IMG/VR virus record: IMGVR_UViG_3300018426_000028
Coordinates: 1-52,931 of that record
Source: a virus
Length of the DNA: 52,931 nucleotides
Strand: one strand, 5' to 3'
Shown here: piece by piece, positions 44,457-51,320 of the stretch
Position numbering within the stretch: the first letter of the stretch is position 1
How the letters are laid out: the number at the start of each line of letters is the position of its first letter
Notes under the pieces: generated by a model
What the model was told of the DNA's origin: nothing
Seen by the model: only the letters and a program-made list of their open reading frames with translations
Databases searched by the model: none
Program-made: the position numbers and the translations under genes

Positions 44457-45185
44457 ATGAAATCCGTGATAACATTGAAGTTTGGAGACAAATATAACTC
44501 CAACGATGTCAATTGTATTTATGATAATTCAAATATTTACAGACATGTCTGTATCACAGACGATCCAGCAGGATTAAATCCCAACATAGAAATTATACCA
44601 ATAGATTCTGATACCGATGGATGTTGGGAAAAAATAAAAATTTTCAAGAATGATTGGGTTGGGGATTGCCTCTATCTAGACTTAGATGTTATAATACAGG
44701 GTAGTTTAGATAGGTTGTTTAATCACTGTTCAACACCGACAATATGTTATTGCTATTGGAAAAATAAAGATACTCATGAAACCAAGAATAGAAGATACCA
44801 ACGAGAGATGCCATACCTTGGAAATGGACTATCAACTGATCCGTGGATGCAAAAATGGAAAGGTCTTTATAATTCCAGCGTAATGGTTTGGAATGGGAAT
44901 GATGCAAGATACATTTACGATCATTTTGAAAAAAATGATGAATATTTCATGACTAAATATTGTGGTGATGATAGATTTTTATATCATGAAAATATGTTTG
45001 ACAATGTATTTCCAAAAGGATTAATCTATTCGTTGACGGGAGGCGTAGATTTAGACACGGACGTATCTCCAAGAGGGTATCAAATAAAACCAGACTATCC
45101 AATAGTTTTGTTAAACGGTAACGAACCAAAAGAAGAATTGAGAAAAAAATATTATGATGCACTTTCTCTGCATGAAATGGGGTAA
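44457..45185 (+). CDS. Glycosyltransferase-like protein (GT-A), copy 1 of 4
   Basis: 242 residues, first gene of the plus-strand island. Start VITLKFGDKYNSNDVNCIYDN matches the KWGNKY start of the three following genes. GT-A nucleotide-sugar motif LDLDVIIQ with DLD at 75-77, then YNSSVMVWN (about 141-149), a substrate-side motif of these enzymes. It ends with Lys/Glu-rich helix. It overlaps the next gene by 29 bases. It likely transfers a sugar; donor and acceptor are unknown, but the neighbouring fibre genes make virion decoration attractive. Confidence 0.8.
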   Translation: MKSVITLKFGDKYNSNDVNCIYDNSNIYRHVCITDDPAGLNPNIEIIPIDSDTDGCWEKIKIFKNDWVGDCLYLDLDVIIQGSLDRLFNHCSTPTICYCYWKNKDTHETKNRRYQREMPYLGNGLSTDPWMQKWKGLYNSSVMVWNGNDARYIYDHFEKNDEYFMTKYCGDDRFLYHENMFDNVFPKGLIYSLTGGVDLDTDVSPRGYQIKPDYPIVLLNGNEPKEELRKKYYDALSLHEMG

Positions 45186-47877
45186 CAAATACTCGGCAGA
45201 ATATGTAAACAATTTACGCAAGATGGTTCAACAGAACTATACGAAACGCCACAAGTTTATTTGTTATACCGATGACCCAGATGGAATAGACAAAAATATA
45301 ACCATTAGATCAATTCCCAGAGTTGACCCACTTCATCCAGACTATTGGTTTGGCAAAGAGAACTGGTGTTGGGATAGGTCGAAATTCTTAGTATTAAACT
45401 CTCACCGATGGTTAAAAACCAAGGGGCCTTTTTGTTATTTAGATTTGGATGTTGTAATTCAAAACAACATCGATGAAATCTTTGATCTTTCATCTACTCC
45501 TCACATGTTGTATTCTCACTGGGAAGACCCCAGAGTACTAAAAGACAGACGTTTCACTGACATTAGAGGTAGTCTGTACAATTCTAGCGTGATGTTGTGG
45601 TGCAATGATGAGGGAGAAAAAATTTACAATGATGTTCTAAAACACAAGAACACCGTATTTAAAACCTTTTGGAAGGGAACCGATAACTATTATCCATATC
45701 GTGAACACGATGTGGTTGGTGATAATTATTGGTCTTTCCTTCCGTCTGATTGGGTATACTCTTACAATAGAGGACAACAATATCCAGATAATGTGACAGA
45801 ACATCTGTATAGAGAAACGGCAAAGTTTTGTATATTTGATAACCCAGTTGTACCAAGCAAAGGTCAATTCATAAAACCACATGAAGTCAAAGACTATAAC
45901 ATTCTTATACACTGGCATGGGAAAACTGAGTTTGAAAAACTTTGGATGCCAAAGTTTCCAGAAAATTTCTTTACTAAAAATAAACACACAGAAAGAATTG
46001 ATACTCTGATAAATGATGCAAACTCTTACGATCCTTTTGTAAAACAGATTGAATCCAGACACCTAGAAACCATCAAAGAACTTGATGGAGACTTGATTTC
46101 AATGCACAAGAAATTCTTGGCAGACTTTCCCACCGATCCATTTTTGTTGGACGGAGATGAATCTTTATACTGGAACAAAGATGTAAATGGAATCTATGAT
46201 TTCTATAAGGAAAGATATGTTTACAAGATGCACAAGGTTGTCTTTGATGTTCTTATTGATAAGTTCTACAAGGACTTACCAAAAATAAAAGAGGATTGGG
46301 AAAAGTACAACGACAAGTTTGATAGCATTAAGAACTGGTCTCAGTTTGATTCTATGACGGATGACACACTAGAAAAAAACTACATGGATCAAAAGATCGT
46401 AAGCAGACTCAGACATATGTTGGATGAGAATGATCTGACATCTTTATCAAAACAAATGATAGAGTACTTCCCAGAGTTAGAAACTCTGAAAGAGGACACC
46501 ATTCCAAATATCAAGGAAAAGTTCCCAGAGTTAGAAAAAGAAATTTCAGACTTCACATTTATTAGAAGAATAGAATCTCATCACAGAAAAATAATTAAAG
46601 AGATATATGAAACTGGTGATATGATTTCTATGCACAAAAAGTTTTTGGCTGATTTTCCAGAAGACAAGATATTGCAGAACGGAGATCAATCACTGTATTG
46701 GAATAAAAACGTTGATGGAATCTATGACTTCTATAAAGAAAGGTATATATCCAGACAACACAAAATTGTTTATGAAGAAGCAAAAGAATATGGGCCGGTG
46801 AGATACTTCTGGAACATCAGCTGGCTACAGTGTTTTGCACTGTATCGTAGACTGTGGCATAAAAATGAACTGCCAAAAATAAAAAAAGAGTTCATGAAAA
46901 ATGTTAGAATGTATGGGATGCAAAGATTATTCTGGGATGCAGATGACGGTGACATCCAGAGTTTATACCGCAGATACTACATAGACAATCTAAAAGAGTT
47001 GTTCTACAAACAAGATTATGAAGCAGTATTTGAAAGACTGTATAACATCATGCCAAAGGATGAACTTTTGGGAATCTTGAAACAAGATAACATATCAGAC
47101 GATACTCTAGTTAAGTATTTCCAAATGCATGGGGAACAGTACTCTGATATGTATCGAGGACTATATGAAGATGGAGCCCCAGAAGGAGCCTTGGTTCAAT
47201 TAAGTAGCAAAAGAAACGATACCAATGACCCGTACAATGATTTATTCTTAACAGAAAACGAACATACAATCTCATCTATCAGAAAGATTTTCGATAGGTA
47301 TAGAGTCAATTGGGTTACGCTTATGTGTGAATTGTCAGACCCTACCAAATCAGAACACTTTGAGGAAATCTGTAAATACTTCCAAGACAATGGGATTACC
47401 GTTACGGTTCAAACATATGATCAAACGTTTATCAAACCAACTTGGGTTGATAAAATAGAATATATCGATCATCCGCAACAGACGGAAAACATTCCCATAG
47501 TACAAGAAACTATCGCCAGTGACATCCCCGTAAACTTGGAAACGTTAAAGATGTTCAAACAAAAGGACGAGGTTCGTAGACCAAAACCAAAGGCGAAGAA
47601 GTCCGAGGCAGTCTGGTGCGATGCAAGAAAGAGTGGATATTTTTATGTTAGTGCTGACAGTGGCGCATATCCGTGTGCCTATATAGCAAGAGATGTATTA
47701 GAAAGTAGATTATTACCCTATCATCCACTTGACTACACATACAATTCGCAGTATAATAGTTTAAAGAATTTTACTGTTGGCGAGATAATTTATAGTAACG
47801 ACTTTGAAAATGTTAGTCAGAGTTTAAAAAGAAACCCCCTGACTATTTGTAATAAAAAATGCGGAGGGTGTAAGTGA
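45157..47877 (+). CDS. Glycosyltransferase - repeat region - SPASM-like fusion, copy 2 of 4
   Basis: 906 residues. Residues 1-280 are a GT-A domain (CMKWGNKYS start; DLD at 96-98; YNSSVMLW). About 299-545 holds two copies of a helical repeat with ISMHKKFLADFP, SLYWNK and GIYDFYKERY, then more aromatic helices (RYFW, YRRLWHK, YRRYY). From about 700 the region ELSDPTKSEHFEEICKYFQDNGITVTV looks like the second half of a radical-SAM barrel but lacks CxxxCxxC. The end has Cys 821, 840, 898, 902 and 905, a SPASM-like auxiliary Fe-S pattern. Start chosen at the second ATG to match paralogue N-termini. Overlaps copy 3 (GTG/TGA). Confidence 0.78.
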   Translation: MHFLCMKWGNKYSAEYVNNLRKMVQQNYTKRHKFICYTDDPDGIDKNITIRSIPRVDPLHPDYWFGKENWCWDRSKFLVLNSHRWLKTKGPFCYLDLDVVIQNNIDEIFDLSSTPHMLYSHWEDPRVLKDRRFTDIRGSLYNSSVMLWCNDEGEKIYNDVLKHKNTVFKTFWKGTDNYYPYREHDVVGDNYWSFLPSDWVYSYNRGQQYPDNVTEHLYRETAKFCIFDNPVVPSKGQFIKPHEVKDYNILIHWHGKTEFEKLWMPKFPENFFTKNKHTERIDTLINDANSYDPFVKQIESRHLETIKELDGDLISMHKKFLADFPTDPFLLDGDESLYWNKDVNGIYDFYKERYVYKMHKVVFDVLIDKFYKDLPKIKEDWEKYNDKFDSIKNWSQFDSMTDDTLEKNYMDQKIVSRLRHMLDENDLTSLSKQMIEYFPELETLKEDTIPNIKEKFPELEKEISDFTFIRRIESHHRKIIKEIYETGDMISMHKKFLADFPEDKILQNGDQSLYWNKNVDGIYDFYKERYISRQHKIVYEEAKEYGPVRYFWNISWLQCFALYRRLWHKNELPKIKKEFMKNVRMYGMQRLFWDADDGDIQSLYRRYYIDNLKELFYKQDYEAVFERLYNIMPKDELLGILKQDNISDDTLVKYFQMHGEQYSDMYRGLYEDGAPEGALVQLSSKRNDTNDPYNDLFLTENEHTISSIRKIFDRYRVNWVTLMCELSDPTKSEHFEEICKYFQDNGITVTVQTYDQTFIKPTWVDKIEYIDHPQQTENIPIVQETIASDIPVNLETLKMFKQKDEVRRPKPKAKKSEAVWCDARKSGYFYVSADSGAYPCAYIARDVLESRLLPYHPLDYTYNSQYNSLKNFTVGEIIYSNDFENVSQSLKRNPLTICNKKCGGCK
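46051..46780 (+). repeat. Two ~70-residue repeats in the GT-SPASM fusion
   Basis: Copy 1 (46051-46250) and copy 2 (46573-46780) encode matching peptides: ES-R/H-H, ISMHKKFLADFP, G-D-x-SLYWNK, GIYDFYKERY, HK-x-V. Spacing is 522 bases. The DNA is clearly diverged, so the duplication is not recent. Confidence 0.85.
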
Positions 47878-48692
47878 GAGTAAATTATGTATGTTGCAAG
47901 TGGGGAACAAAGTATGGCCCGCACTTCGTCAACAGATTAAAAGAAATGGCGAAAAGAAACACGCCAGAAGAATTTGAATTTTATTTTTATTGTTACACGG
48001 ACAATTCAGATGGATTTGACTCTGACATCAATGTTATACCATTTCCTGATATTCCTAATATTCATCCTAAGTATTGGTTTGGGACTGAAGATTTTAAGTA
48101 TGGTATGGCACGTTGCTGGGATCGTCCTAAAACTTTTGTTTTCAATACTCATAATTTTGCTGACGATAAACCTACTGGGCGCTTTGTTTTTTTTGATCTT
48201 GATGTTATTATCCAAGGTGATCTTACACCTGTCCTAACATACAACATGGAAAGACCCACTAAGATGAAGTCTTGGTGGCAAGACCCAAGACCGATGACCA
48301 CACGGCAATTTAAATTGGCCCACGGTGCATATACGAATGGTTCTTGTCAAGTGTGGTCAGATGATCAGTGTGAGTGTATCTGGAATGATGTATTAGAGAA
48401 TCAAGAAAAAATTTGGTTCACATACACCGATGGAACCGACAACTATCACTCTTGGAAATGGGGTAGGTACGGCGAAGACTTGTGGGATCACTTCCCTTCT
48501 TGGATGGCATACTCATATAACCGTGGTAGGTCATGGGATGAAGATGATTTGAACGTTGGAATCTACAGACCAAACTGTATCATATGTGTGTTCAATGTTG
48601 ATCTTTTGCCTTTTGAAGACAAAAGTAGAGGTCACACAAAACAAGATGAACTCGCAGACCCTCAACTACTAAAACATTGGACTGGTGAATGA
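47874..48692 (+). CDS. Glycosyltransferase-like protein (GT-A), copy 3 of 4
   Basis: 272 residues with a GTG start at 47874, preceded by GGAGG and overlapping the previous TGA by three bases. Start VNYVCCKWGTKYGPHFVNRL; FFDLDVIIQGD with D108/D110; GAYTNGSCQVW in place of YNSS. Contains CWDRPKTFVFN and several Trp-rich stretches like copy 2. Couples to copy 4 by ATGA. Probable sugar transferase of the same family. Confidence 0.8.
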   Translation: MRVNYVCCKWGTKYGPHFVNRLKEMAKRNTPEEFEFYFYCYTDNSDGFDSDINVIPFPDIPNIHPKYWFGTEDFKYGMARCWDRPKTFVFNTHNFADDKPTGRFVFFDLDVIIQGDLTPVLTYNMERPTKMKSWWQDPRPMTTRQFKLAHGAYTNGSCQVWSDDQCECIWNDVLENQEKIWFTYTDGTDNYHSWKWGRYGEDLWDHFPSWMAYSYNRGRSWDEDDLNVGIYRPNCIICVFNVDLLPFEDKSRGHTKQDELADPQLLKHWTGE

Positions 48693-49363
48693 ATATTTAC
48701 ACTGTTAAATGGGGCAACAAATATATTGCTTCTCATGTAAATCAACTCTATGAGAGTTGTAAGCAACATATAAGTTGCGACTTTGACTTCTATTGTCTAA
48801 CAGAAGATTCAAAAGACCTAGACCCCGCTATAAAAGTATTGTCATTTCCAGGCGGAAACAAACTAGAAAAGTGGTGGAATAAGATGTATCTGTTTGATGA
48901 TACTATTGTTACACAAAAAGGCGAAAAGATGTTCTTTGACTTGGACGTAATCATCCAAAAGAACATCGATGATATTGTAAACTATGATCCAGAAGATTGT
49001 CTGTGTTTTGTAAAAACATGGTGGCACGATCTAGAAACACAGTACAGGGACACTAGACACATTCCACACAAGTACACTGACTTGAACTCATCTGTGTTGC
49101 GCTGGAATGACAGTCTAAATACTAGAGAACTGATCGAATATTTTAACAAGTATAAGAAACAAATACTGTGGTACTATCGAGGCCTTGACAACTTCTTCTA
49201 CAACAGAAGGGTGGTAAAAACAAAAATGTTTCCACTAGGATGGGTGTACAGTTTTAATCAGGGATATGTTTTTCCGCATGACATAGAAAGACATACATAC
49301 AGAGAACTACCATATATTTGTATATTTGACTCAATGGGAAAAAGTGAAGATGTTAAATTCTAA
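48689..49363 (+). CDS. Glycosyltransferase-like protein (GT-A), copy 4 of 4
   Basis: 224 residues. NIYTVKWGNKYIASHVNQLYESC start; FFDLDVIIQKN with D84/D86; LNSSVLRWND near residue 134. Same fold and order as copies 1-3. ATG overlaps the copy-3 stop by four bases, and its own stop overlaps the next gene by 14 bases. Likely functional as all GT-A motifs are kept. Confidence 0.8.
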   Translation: MNIYTVKWGNKYIASHVNQLYESCKQHISCDFDFYCLTEDSKDLDPAIKVLSFPGGNKLEKWWNKMYLFDDTIVTQKGEKMFFDLDVIIQKNIDDIVNYDPEDCLCFVKTWWHDLETQYRDTRHIPHKYTDLNSSVLRWNDSLNTRELIEYFNKYKKQILWYYRGLDNFFYNRRVVKTKMFPLGWVYSFNQGYVFPHDIERHTYRELPYICIFDSMGKSEDVKF

Positions 49364-50033
49364 TTTTATCAACAACTATAAAAACTGGGGCGAAGCTCTA
49401 CATATTATCGAAAAGAAAATGCCACATAAACTGGCAGACTTCAGACAATCTTTGTCGGAAAATAATATGGAAGCTAGTGTCTGGTGTGTAGAAGAACTAA
49501 AAAAATATCTTGAGGAGTATTACACAAAAACTGGCAACCTAAGAATTCTAATTCTAAACTCTTGGTTGGGGATTCCTATGGTTCCTCTTCTCTGTGAAAA
49601 TCTAGACGTATCACAGATTCACATGGTTGACTTGGATGAAGAGTCAATCGAACTGTCAAAAATTTTTCATAAACACTACGCCCAAGAAAAATTTGTCAAC
49701 ATCCGTCACTGGAATCTTGATGTACCATTTGAATTTGAAAACTTAAACAAGATTGAAGTTGATGTGGTAATTTGTATTCATACTGAACAGATGTATCCTC
49801 TGCAAGAACTCAATGGAAAAAATGCACAAGCGGTTTATGCAGTACAGAATTCAAATGTGGTAGAAGAAATGTACGGTATCAACTGTGTCGGATCAATTGA
49901 AGAGCTGAAAGAACAGATGGGAATATCCGAAACTGGATACGAAGGAACAAAACAACAGACATACTTCTCTTGGGAAGGAAAGAAAGAATATGATCGTTAC
50001 ATGATCATCGGGCAGAGAGAGGGTTTCTTTTAA
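49350..50033 (+). CDS. Rossmann-fold protein, methyltransferase-like
   Basis: 227 residues from the ATG at 49350, chosen over an upstream TTG that lies inside copy 4. Central LRILILNSWLGIPMVPLLCE, IHMVDLDEESIELSKIF and NIRHWNLD look like methyltransferase motifs I, II and III, but the Gly-rich loop is degraded (LNSWLGIP). VDVVICIHTEQMYPL follows where motif IV would be. Last gene of the plus-strand island. It may methylate a sugar or peptide, or bind a nucleotide without catalysis. Its stop overlaps the convergent gene's stop. Confidence 0.65.
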   Translation: MLNSNFINNYKNWGEALHIIEKKMPHKLADFRQSLSENNMEASVWCVEELKKYLEEYYTKTGNLRILILNSWLGIPMVPLLCENLDVSQIHMVDLDEESIELSKIFHKHYAQEKFVNIRHWNLDVPFEFENLNKIEVDVVICIHTEQMYPLQELNGKNAQAVYAVQNSNVVEEMYGINCVGSIEELKEQMGISETGYEGTKQQTYFSWEGKKEYDRYMIIGQREGFF

Positions 50034-50635
50034 CCCTCGATGTCCTCTACCATCATTTCCCACATAGTTTTGTCGGGAATAACAAACCCTATTGTTTGTC
50101 TTGGACTATTTGATCCAGCACAGTGCCAATAGGGTTCTTCCTCTTTACCACCATAATATCCAACCTTTGCAGACCAACCAGGCTGGTCATTGATCGTTTT
50201 TATTTTACCATCTTCTAGGTGTTTAAAAAATCCACCCCCGTCACTATGAGACAGAAGTATGTTATAGCCTGGACAATCCCAGTTATTGTGCCAAGACATA
50301 AATCCACCTACGGGATAATAAACGTGGACTGCGGTAAACTTTGCACCAAGATATGCTGATAGATTTTTGCTGAAGTCTAAAGATTTTTCTCTGGCTTCTT
50401 TTGGAACCTTTGCAGTTAGGTGAAAGTCACATACCTTAGCAAACTCTGGCGGGCCTTTATGTTTGTTTCCCTTTGACATAACTTCATTAAGATATTCTTG
50501 AGAGCAATAATATTCCATATCATTGTCTCCAATCCGTCTCTCATCAAAAGATAGATCAAAGTTTTTTTTGTTGAACCAAACAATGTAGTCTTCAAGAATC
50601 TTATTTAATTCTTGATTGATGGTTATGGTTTGCAT
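50030..50635 (-). CDS. 2OG-Fe(II) oxygenase-like / cupin-fold protein
   Basis: 201 residues. YYPVGGFMSWHNNWDCPGYNILLSH (106-130) and EPYWHCAGSNSPRQTIGFVI (167-186) give H116, N118, H171 and R179, matching the H-x-D...H...R frame of 2OG oxygenases except that the acidic ligand is Asn. Middle GWSAKVGYYGG is a beta-strand pair. Similar proteins occur in marine T4-like phages near structural genes. It may hydroxylate a protein or sugar, or have lost iron chemistry. Converges with the plus-strand island. Confidence 0.62.
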   Translation of the reverse strand: MQTITINQELNKILEDYIVWFNKKNFDLSFDERRIGDNDMEYYCSQEYLNEVMSKGNKHKGPPEFAKVCDFHLTAKVPKEAREKSLDFSKNLSAYLGAKFTAVHVYYPVGGFMSWHNNWDCPGYNILLSHSDGGGFFKHLEDGKIKTINDQPGWSAKVGYYGGKEEEPYWHCAGSNSPRQTIGFVIPDKTMWEMMVEDIEG

Positions 50636-51320
50636 TTAAAGTTACTCTTCCCAATGTATAATGAGTGATAACAACATCTTGTCCCACAAGTTCTTCTGGT
50701 CTTTGACCCATACAAAAGTTCCATCTGGCATCTGGTTCTGGGAACTCACCAACTTTTATTTTATCTTTGTGGTCTGTTTTATTTAGTAGATACCACATAG
50801 TAAAGGTATCCCAAGGTTTCACCATGTGCGTGTATGGACTAGGATCATAAGATGGTTTTATTTGTTCGCAATAATACTCATACCAATCATCCATGAGGTC
50901 AACTGTTTTTGCGTTCTTTTTATAAACAAAAACACCACAGTGATAAACCATTTCTTCCGTATCATTTAGTTTTGTTATTTTAGCATTGTATGGACGATTT
51001 TTGGTAAAGATAATATCGTTGTTGCCTATAAAACCAAAGACATCTTTGATATCTTCATGTTGAATGTAAGTATCACAATCAATATACATGGTGATATCAT
51101 ATGGAGTTCTTGACAAAGCCCACAACTTTGTTCTAACATGATTGGGGATGTCGGTTATAATATGATCAAAGATTTCGTGGTCTTCTTCTTCAATCCATTC
51201 TTCTAGTGCGAATAAAGTTATTCTTGCTTCTGGATTAAAGTCGAGGAGCGAAAGAGCTGACTCTTTGGCGGCGAGATAATATTCTTTTCTCACCGTTGCA
51301 ACGTATAGATATCCGTTCAT
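50601..51320 (-). CDS. Glycosyltransferase (GT-A type)
   Basis: 239 residues. GYLYVATVRKEYYLAAKESALSLLDFNPEA is the N-terminal nucleotide-binding half, and MYIDCDTYI (about 96-104) carries the DxD metal motif. MVYHCGVFVYK follows at the acceptor side. The motifs fit GT-A enzymes acting on UDP- or GDP-sugars but differ from the KWGNKY copies. Ends 35 bases into the next gene; start overlaps the upstream stop by four bases. Confidence 0.82.
   Translation of the reverse strand: MNGYLYVATVRKEYYLAAKESALSLLDFNPEARITLFALEEWIEEEDHEIFDHIITDIPNHVRTKLWALSRTPYDITMYIDCDTYIQHEDIKDVFGFIGNNDIIFTKNRPYNAKITKLNDTEEMVYHCGVFVYKKNAKTVDLMDDWYEYYCEQIKPSYDPSPYTHMVKPWDTFTMWYLLNKTDHKDKIKVGEFPEPDARWNFCMGQRPEELVGQDVVITHYTLGRVTLNANHNHQSRIK

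Follow-up and report, generated by a model that had tools for sequence, protein, structure and literature searches.

The window analyzed here, 52,931 nucleotides (positions 1 to 52,931 of IMG/VR record IMGVR_UViG_3300018426_000028), derives from a T4-like myophage, in which terminase, portal, tail sheath, major head protein, and DNA polymerase genes were identified on the minus strand. The nearest named relatives of the head genes are from Methylophilales, Pelagibacter, and Synechococcus phages, at about 70% DNA identity. On the plus strand lies a conserved five-gene glycosyltransferase (GT)/methyltransferase operon, the second gene of which encodes a protein of 906 amino acids (Table 1). An earlier sequence-only reading had delimited this open reading frame correctly in both coordinates and length; an extra ATG, at 45154, lies ahead of its start. 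An identical protein is present in other records, up to 165 kb long, and its relatives are found on viral contigs, mostly those of marine T4-like phages. The order GT, fusion gene, GT, GT, methyltransferase-like gene holds in all sampled contigs of the same arrangement (type A, below) that are long enough to show it. The operon is flanked by opposite-strand genes, several of which resemble tail fiber genes, judged by repeats alone. On the minus strand, 50030-50635 resembles a 2OG-Fe(II) oxygenase on visual inspection, with no Pfam support, and the overlapping 50601-51320 has a weak GT8 match (E=0.021).

Table 1. Operon genes, domains, and motifs in and around the gene for the 906-amino-acid protein (window coordinates)
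Feature	Position	Strand	Basis
Upstream operon gene, stand-alone GT	44457..45185	+	phrog_1962, E=1.1e-15
Complete fusion gene: GT8-like domain, helices, pseudo-radical-SAM half barrel, Twitch tail	45157..47877	+	906 aa; ORF and homologues
GT-A (GT8-like) domain, ~residues 1-262	45157..45942	+	Operon paralogues, phrog_1962, fold matches
DxD motif D96-L97-D98 in GT-A domain	45442..45450	+	Invariant among full-length fused relatives
Helical repeat copy 1, residues 294-364	46036..46248	+	Self-comparison; single copy in shorter relatives
Helical repeat copy 2, residues 468-540	46558..46776	+	Self-comparison
Pseudo-radical-SAM half barrel, strands 1-3, ~residues 675-770	47179..47466	+	Profile and alignment with intact relatives; secondary structure from models
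NDTxxx[FY]ND loop, residues 687-695	47215..47241	+	Occupies place of intact relatives' CxxxCxxC SAM-cluster loop; 9-column gap
CELSDP, residues 724-729	47326..47343	+	Corresponds to strand-2 GxxGDP in phage radical-SAM proteins
Twitch domain (SPASM type, one cluster), residues 816-906	47602..47874	+	PF13186, intact radical-SAM/Twitch profile, and alignment
C821, ahead of beta-hairpin	47617..47619	+	Sequence and alignments
C840, behind beta-hairpin (PC motif)	47674..47676	+	Sequence and alignments
C898-x3-C902-G-x-C905, past last helix	47848..47871	+	Intact relatives have CxxxCG here (CSAICGKC in L242)
Downstream operon gene, GT paralogue	47874..48692	+	37% identical to residues 2-259 of the 906-aa protein
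Downstream operon gene, GT paralogue	48689..49363	+	phrog_1962, 2.4e-9
Downstream operon gene, methyltransferase-like protein	49326..50033	+	Weak Pfam matches, under cut-off

The N-terminal part of the protein was originally read as a GT-A domain, and the searches agree. Residues 1-262 share 37, 32, and 37% identity with the products of the three neighboring genes, and the phage GT family phrog_1962 matches the protein itself with E=0.0036 (1.1e-15 for a neighboring paralogue). In the full-length structure model (mean pLDDT 74.5), this domain matches the LgtC and glycogenin folds with probability 1.00, and phage GT8 proteins were also matched. The Pfam GT8 profile (PF01501) gave no match to the protein, and among the isolated phages searched, matches were confined to its GT part. 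With the modeled GT-A fold and the DxD motif, residues 1-262 would belong with the GT8-type enzymes, and the GT is apparently active, as its fold and DxD motif look intact. Residues 256-670 are almost wholly helical in the same model and hold the two helical repeats that had been recognized from the sequence, which are 63% identical over 73 amino acids (E=1e-31). Relatives of 735 to 840 amino acids have one repeat copy, and those of about 465 amino acids have no helical region.

The tail had no convincing match when the single protein was searched against Pfam, PHROGs, NCBIfam, and PDB sequences; its affiliation was established via relatives and a purpose-built profile. A PHROGs scan with seventeen family members returned a weak radical-SAM match in two (E=1.7e-4), and one scan of cellular genomes returned no relatives of the C-terminal part. 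The profile was built from 35 intact radical-SAM/Twitch proteins collected from phage contigs and was compared with about 1,170 decoys (791 other ORFs plus reversed and shuffled sequences). It scored 47.7 bits over the whole match to the 906-amino-acid protein, against 6.4 for the best decoy, and 38 to 51 bits in all 18 family members tested. On its own, the Twitch part scored 29.9 to 45 bits (best decoy, 6.1); for the half barrel, scores were 6.2 to 18.6 bits across members, with 15.1 for the protein studied here (best decoy, 5.6). Because the half barrel is weak on its own in some members, its support comes from collinearity with the Twitch match, and the two matches are collinear in nearly all of the 35 intact relatives. 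Aligned by hhalign, the family and the intact profile correspond over 220 columns (probability, 97.2%; E=3.6e-11). A chance cysteine pattern is ruled out by the alignment and by the profile scores relative to the decoys.

The joint alignment with intact relatives locates what has been lost. A 9-column gap falls at the CxxxCxxC loop, directly after strand 1; strands 1-3 and their helices are retained, and the second half of the barrel (strands 4-6, about 70 residues) is absent. The sequence-only reading had described a degenerate radical-SAM segment devoid of CxxxCxxC, and this is borne out, as the motif occurs outside the terminal motif in 0 of 118 distinct relatives; its identification of the segment as the second half of the barrel was mistaken, since it is strands 1-3 that remain. 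Compared with the radical-SAM superfamily (PF04055), the family lacks the SAM-cluster CxxxCxxC, and its sequence shows descent from radical-SAM barrels; having strands 1-3 only, the protein does not amount to a partial (beta/alpha)6 barrel. Among the 17 fused relatives aligned, N76, D77, T78, N83, and D84 of NDTxxx[FY]ND are invariant. One-for-one replacement of the SAM-cluster cysteines by asparagine was considered; the alignment favors loop loss, the exact register there being uncertain. The NDTxxx[FY]ND loop is conserved in the fused types and is a putative new binding site.

Cysteines 821, 840, 898, 902, and 905 lie at the positions first listed for them and, together with C724 and C739, are invariant or nearly so in the 17 fused relatives. 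The Twitch cysteines pair one for one with those of intact relatives, C905 corresponding to the last cysteine of CSAICGKC in L242, and the pattern of the fused family, C-x13-[G/S]-x4-C...CxxxCG, is the same five-cysteine set found in the intact radical-SAM relatives. The Pfam search reported no PF13186 (SPASM) match for the 906-amino-acid protein; many relatives matched under the cut-off (E from 0.002 to 0.09), and three attained it (G006, G013, and L358, the last with 21.8 versus 21.5 bits). By the published definition, a Twitch domain holds one auxiliary cluster and a SPASM domain has seven cysteines and two auxiliary clusters (PMC6231123), and the tail is therefore a Twitch domain: it has a cysteine on each side of the beta-hairpin and three past the last helix, and five cysteines rather than the seven of CX9-15GX4C-gap-CX2CX5CX3C-gap-C. 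The first half of the latter pattern, CX9-15GX4C, is present in relatives, with S for G in the protein studied here. Thus, the SPASM-like cysteine order proposed from the sequence reflects genuine homology to Twitch/SPASM domains, although of the single-cluster and not the seven-cysteine kind. The hairpin and helices of the Twitch domain are seen in the full-length model, the alignment for which included Twitch fragments of intact relatives, so this part of the model is not independent of them. A model of the C terminus from the family only was poor (pLDDT 53); with it, Foldseek found no match below 0.001, and many of the more probable matches were radical-SAM proteins.

Relatives were found by pattern in limited collections, and operon arrangements were found via loci carrying the downstream GT, so that the counts given here are lower bounds. 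The same operon occurs in three arrangements: type A, that of the 906-amino-acid protein; type B, in which a protein of about 465 amino acids joins the GT directly to the tail; and type C, with a stand-alone GT and a separate protein of about 500 amino acids. In type C proteins, the match to the intact profile runs from position ~42 to ~306-329 of 338 (E of ~1e-26 to 1e-32), which corresponds to the barrel beyond the cluster loop; these proteins hold on to most of the barrel, and CxxxCxxC is also absent from them. Their N terminus is weakly similar to the GT domain (best E=3e-5) and reads TPN at the DxD position. All five tail cysteines are kept in 82 of the 118 distinct relatives; 22 have Cys-Cys-His-Cys, and the remaining 14 are incomplete or broken off at contig ends. 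The expectation that the cysteines would be conserved in homologues thus holds for all five in the fused family, and it holds only in part in the distant type C (separate-gene) branch, where Cys-Cys-His-Cys is seen. In L390, L398, L400, L401, L413, L415, L421, L424, and their relatives, HNEQGGxC (or a close variant) stands in place of CxxxCGxC, giving the Cys-Cys-His-Cys set. When the Twitch domains are placed in a tree, the three types group in one clade (support, 99/96) apart from the intact proteins, with a warning from the tree tool of long branches meeting. That the cluster loop was lost only once is, on this sequence comparison, likely, not proven. A protein that is separate in one lineage and fused in another is a classical sign of joint working; the type C protein, separate there but joined to the GT in types A and B, is therefore a sign that GT and tail cooperate.

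Several phage contigs in the collection have unusual arrangements of radical-SAM genes. A phage with the identical 906-amino-acid protein has seven in a row (L217:6910-18087, minus strand, equivalent to ~136.9-148.1 kb of G001). The four of these L217 genes that were tested with NCBIfam are N_Twi_rSAM (NF033640; E of ~1e-89 to 1e-111). The SPASM cut-off is exceeded by four of the seven genes, in which the SPASM domain is N-terminal. A radical-SAM core and a Twitch-like domain occur as overlapping ORFs in different frames in L227 (682-1461 and 1436-1705), L228 (866-1672 and 1647-1916), and Pelagibacter phage Mosig (L231; core, 426-1061; Twitch-like, 1054-1392), which represent split genes or frameshifting. 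In Campylobacter phage CP220 (L332, 1300-8729), five radical-SAM genes lie side by side with an amidinotransferase-like gene and a nucleotide-diphospho-sugar-transferase-like gene.

We consider it probable that the protein is a GT8-type glycosyltransferase with a catalytically dead radical-SAM/Twitch tail that carries a predicted Fe-S cluster and serves to dock the acceptor or a partner. The tail descends from intact radical-SAM/Twitch proteins common in T4-like phages, with the loop for the SAM-binding [4Fe-4S] cluster gone and, in the fused line, the second barrel half gone as well, as the alignment indicates. Given known radical-SAM chemistry, the loss of the cluster loop means that SAM radical chemistry is not expected in this protein. 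The four canonical Twitch ligands and the fifth cysteine have been retained under strong purifying selection, and the domain most likely binds one Fe-S cluster. Twitch and SPASM domains have a substrate-binding role, and for this reason we propose that the tail holds the acceptor or a partner protein, or brings it into position, so that the GT domain can transfer the sugar. Retention of the pocket in most relatives suggests that it may be useful for that transfer. The enzyme probably acts together with the operon's other three GTs and its methyltransferase-like protein, and the product may be a glycan built or capped on a phage protein, a host protein, or the surface of the host. More tentatively, this could be a class of GT that relies, for its activity or its choice of acceptor, on an Fe-S cluster handed down from a defunct radical-SAM enzyme, an auxiliary cluster put to the service of group transfer.

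The main rival to iron is zinc, because a Cys-Cys-His-Cys branch exists. Cys-Cys-His-Cys is a common zinc ligand set, and its presence in the distant separate-gene branch counts against the Fe-S reading, as it fits zinc or an altered cluster equally well; in addition, no radical chemistry any longer needs the cluster. Nevertheless, the fused family retains the exact five-cysteine Twitch pattern of the intact radical-SAM relatives, and we regard it as unlikely that the Twitch domain has become a structural zinc knuckle. We are somewhat more doubtful still of a role for the tail as an Fe-S or oxygen/iron sensor, turning the GT on or off as the redox or iron status of the infected cell changes. 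Conservation of all candidate ligands in the fused family, and the direct joining of the tail to an apparently active GT, would suit a sensor, whereas no regulatory domain or regulatory gene is seen beside the tail gene, and the only potential measured for a fully ligated Twitch cluster, that of BtrN, is awkwardly low at -765 mV (PMC9012708).

It is also improbable that the tail works in trans, with the Twitch domain docking to, or lending its cluster to, an intact radical-SAM enzyme of the same phage and thereby coupling radical chemistry with glycosylation. Several of these phages encode 7 to 9 radical-SAM genes, some encode the radical-SAM core and Twitch domain as separate overlapping ORFs, and Campylobacter phage radical-SAM genes adjoin a GT-like gene, but the conserved operon contains no radical-SAM gene. 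The suggestion in the sequence-only reading of a remnant of a peptide-modifying enzyme, if taken as functionless and decaying, would accommodate the loss of the SAM-cluster loop and half the barrel, yet it is contradicted by low dN/dS in every domain and is scarcely credible. Every domain of the protein is under strong purifying selection (where synonymous sites are unsaturated, dN/dS is ~0.02 to 0.10 for the GT, the helices, the half barrel, and the Twitch domain and reaches 0.18 for the linker), the cysteines and the NDT...ND motif are invariant, and the tail is present in every sampled operon whose gene is uncut.

The closest known systems each share only part of this architecture. The intact phage radical-SAM/Twitch proteins (such as L261 and L242; PF04055 plus PF13186, related to phrog_21308) have barrel strands 1-3, a GxxxDP motif, and the Twitch C...PC...CxxxCG in the same order; they differ in possessing the SAM-cluster loop with CxxxCxxC, GxxGDP, and the whole barrel and in having no GT domain. 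The GT8 enzymes LgtC and glycogenin, as well as phage phrog_1962, share the GT-A fold and DxD motif and have no radical-SAM or Twitch tail. BtrN, MoaA, and SkfB share the cysteine layout of the tail, with a cysteine on each side of the beta-hairpin, cysteines past the last helix, and one auxiliary cluster (PMC6231123, PMC9012708), but they are active radical-SAM enzymes without a glycosyltransferase domain. In pelagimyophages, which are likewise T4-like marine phages, a GT-rich host-recognition cluster near the tail fibers contains GT8-type genes and radical-SAM cassettes, and modification of the host O-antigen has been proposed; the portion of that paper drawn on here makes no mention of a GT/pseudo-radical-SAM fusion (PMC7029224). 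Searches of Pfam, NCBIfam, PHROGs, and PDB sequences gave no such fusion with a Twitch tail, nor did the literature that we found describe one, in keeping with the initial impression that no standard enzyme has this layout.

A SPASM protein without SAM function is not in itself a new idea, because NCBIfam has a pseudo-SAM/SPASM model, TIGR04347, for a haloarchaeal protein that, by the name of the model (from which we know it here), is a SAM-less radical-SAM relative keeping its SPASM domain. TIGR04347 matched an intact phage radical-SAM protein and not the family described here, and we know of no fusion of it to a GT. What is new is the GT fusion, the stepwise intermediates, and the phage setting. 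The function of SPASM/Twitch auxiliary clusters has long been in question, because these clusters always adjoin a SAM radical site. With the SAM site removed and the auxiliary pocket kept and fused to an enzyme of another kind, the role of the pocket itself becomes directly testable, and the glycan-modifying operons of marine phages gain a domain architecture that is absent from the libraries searched.
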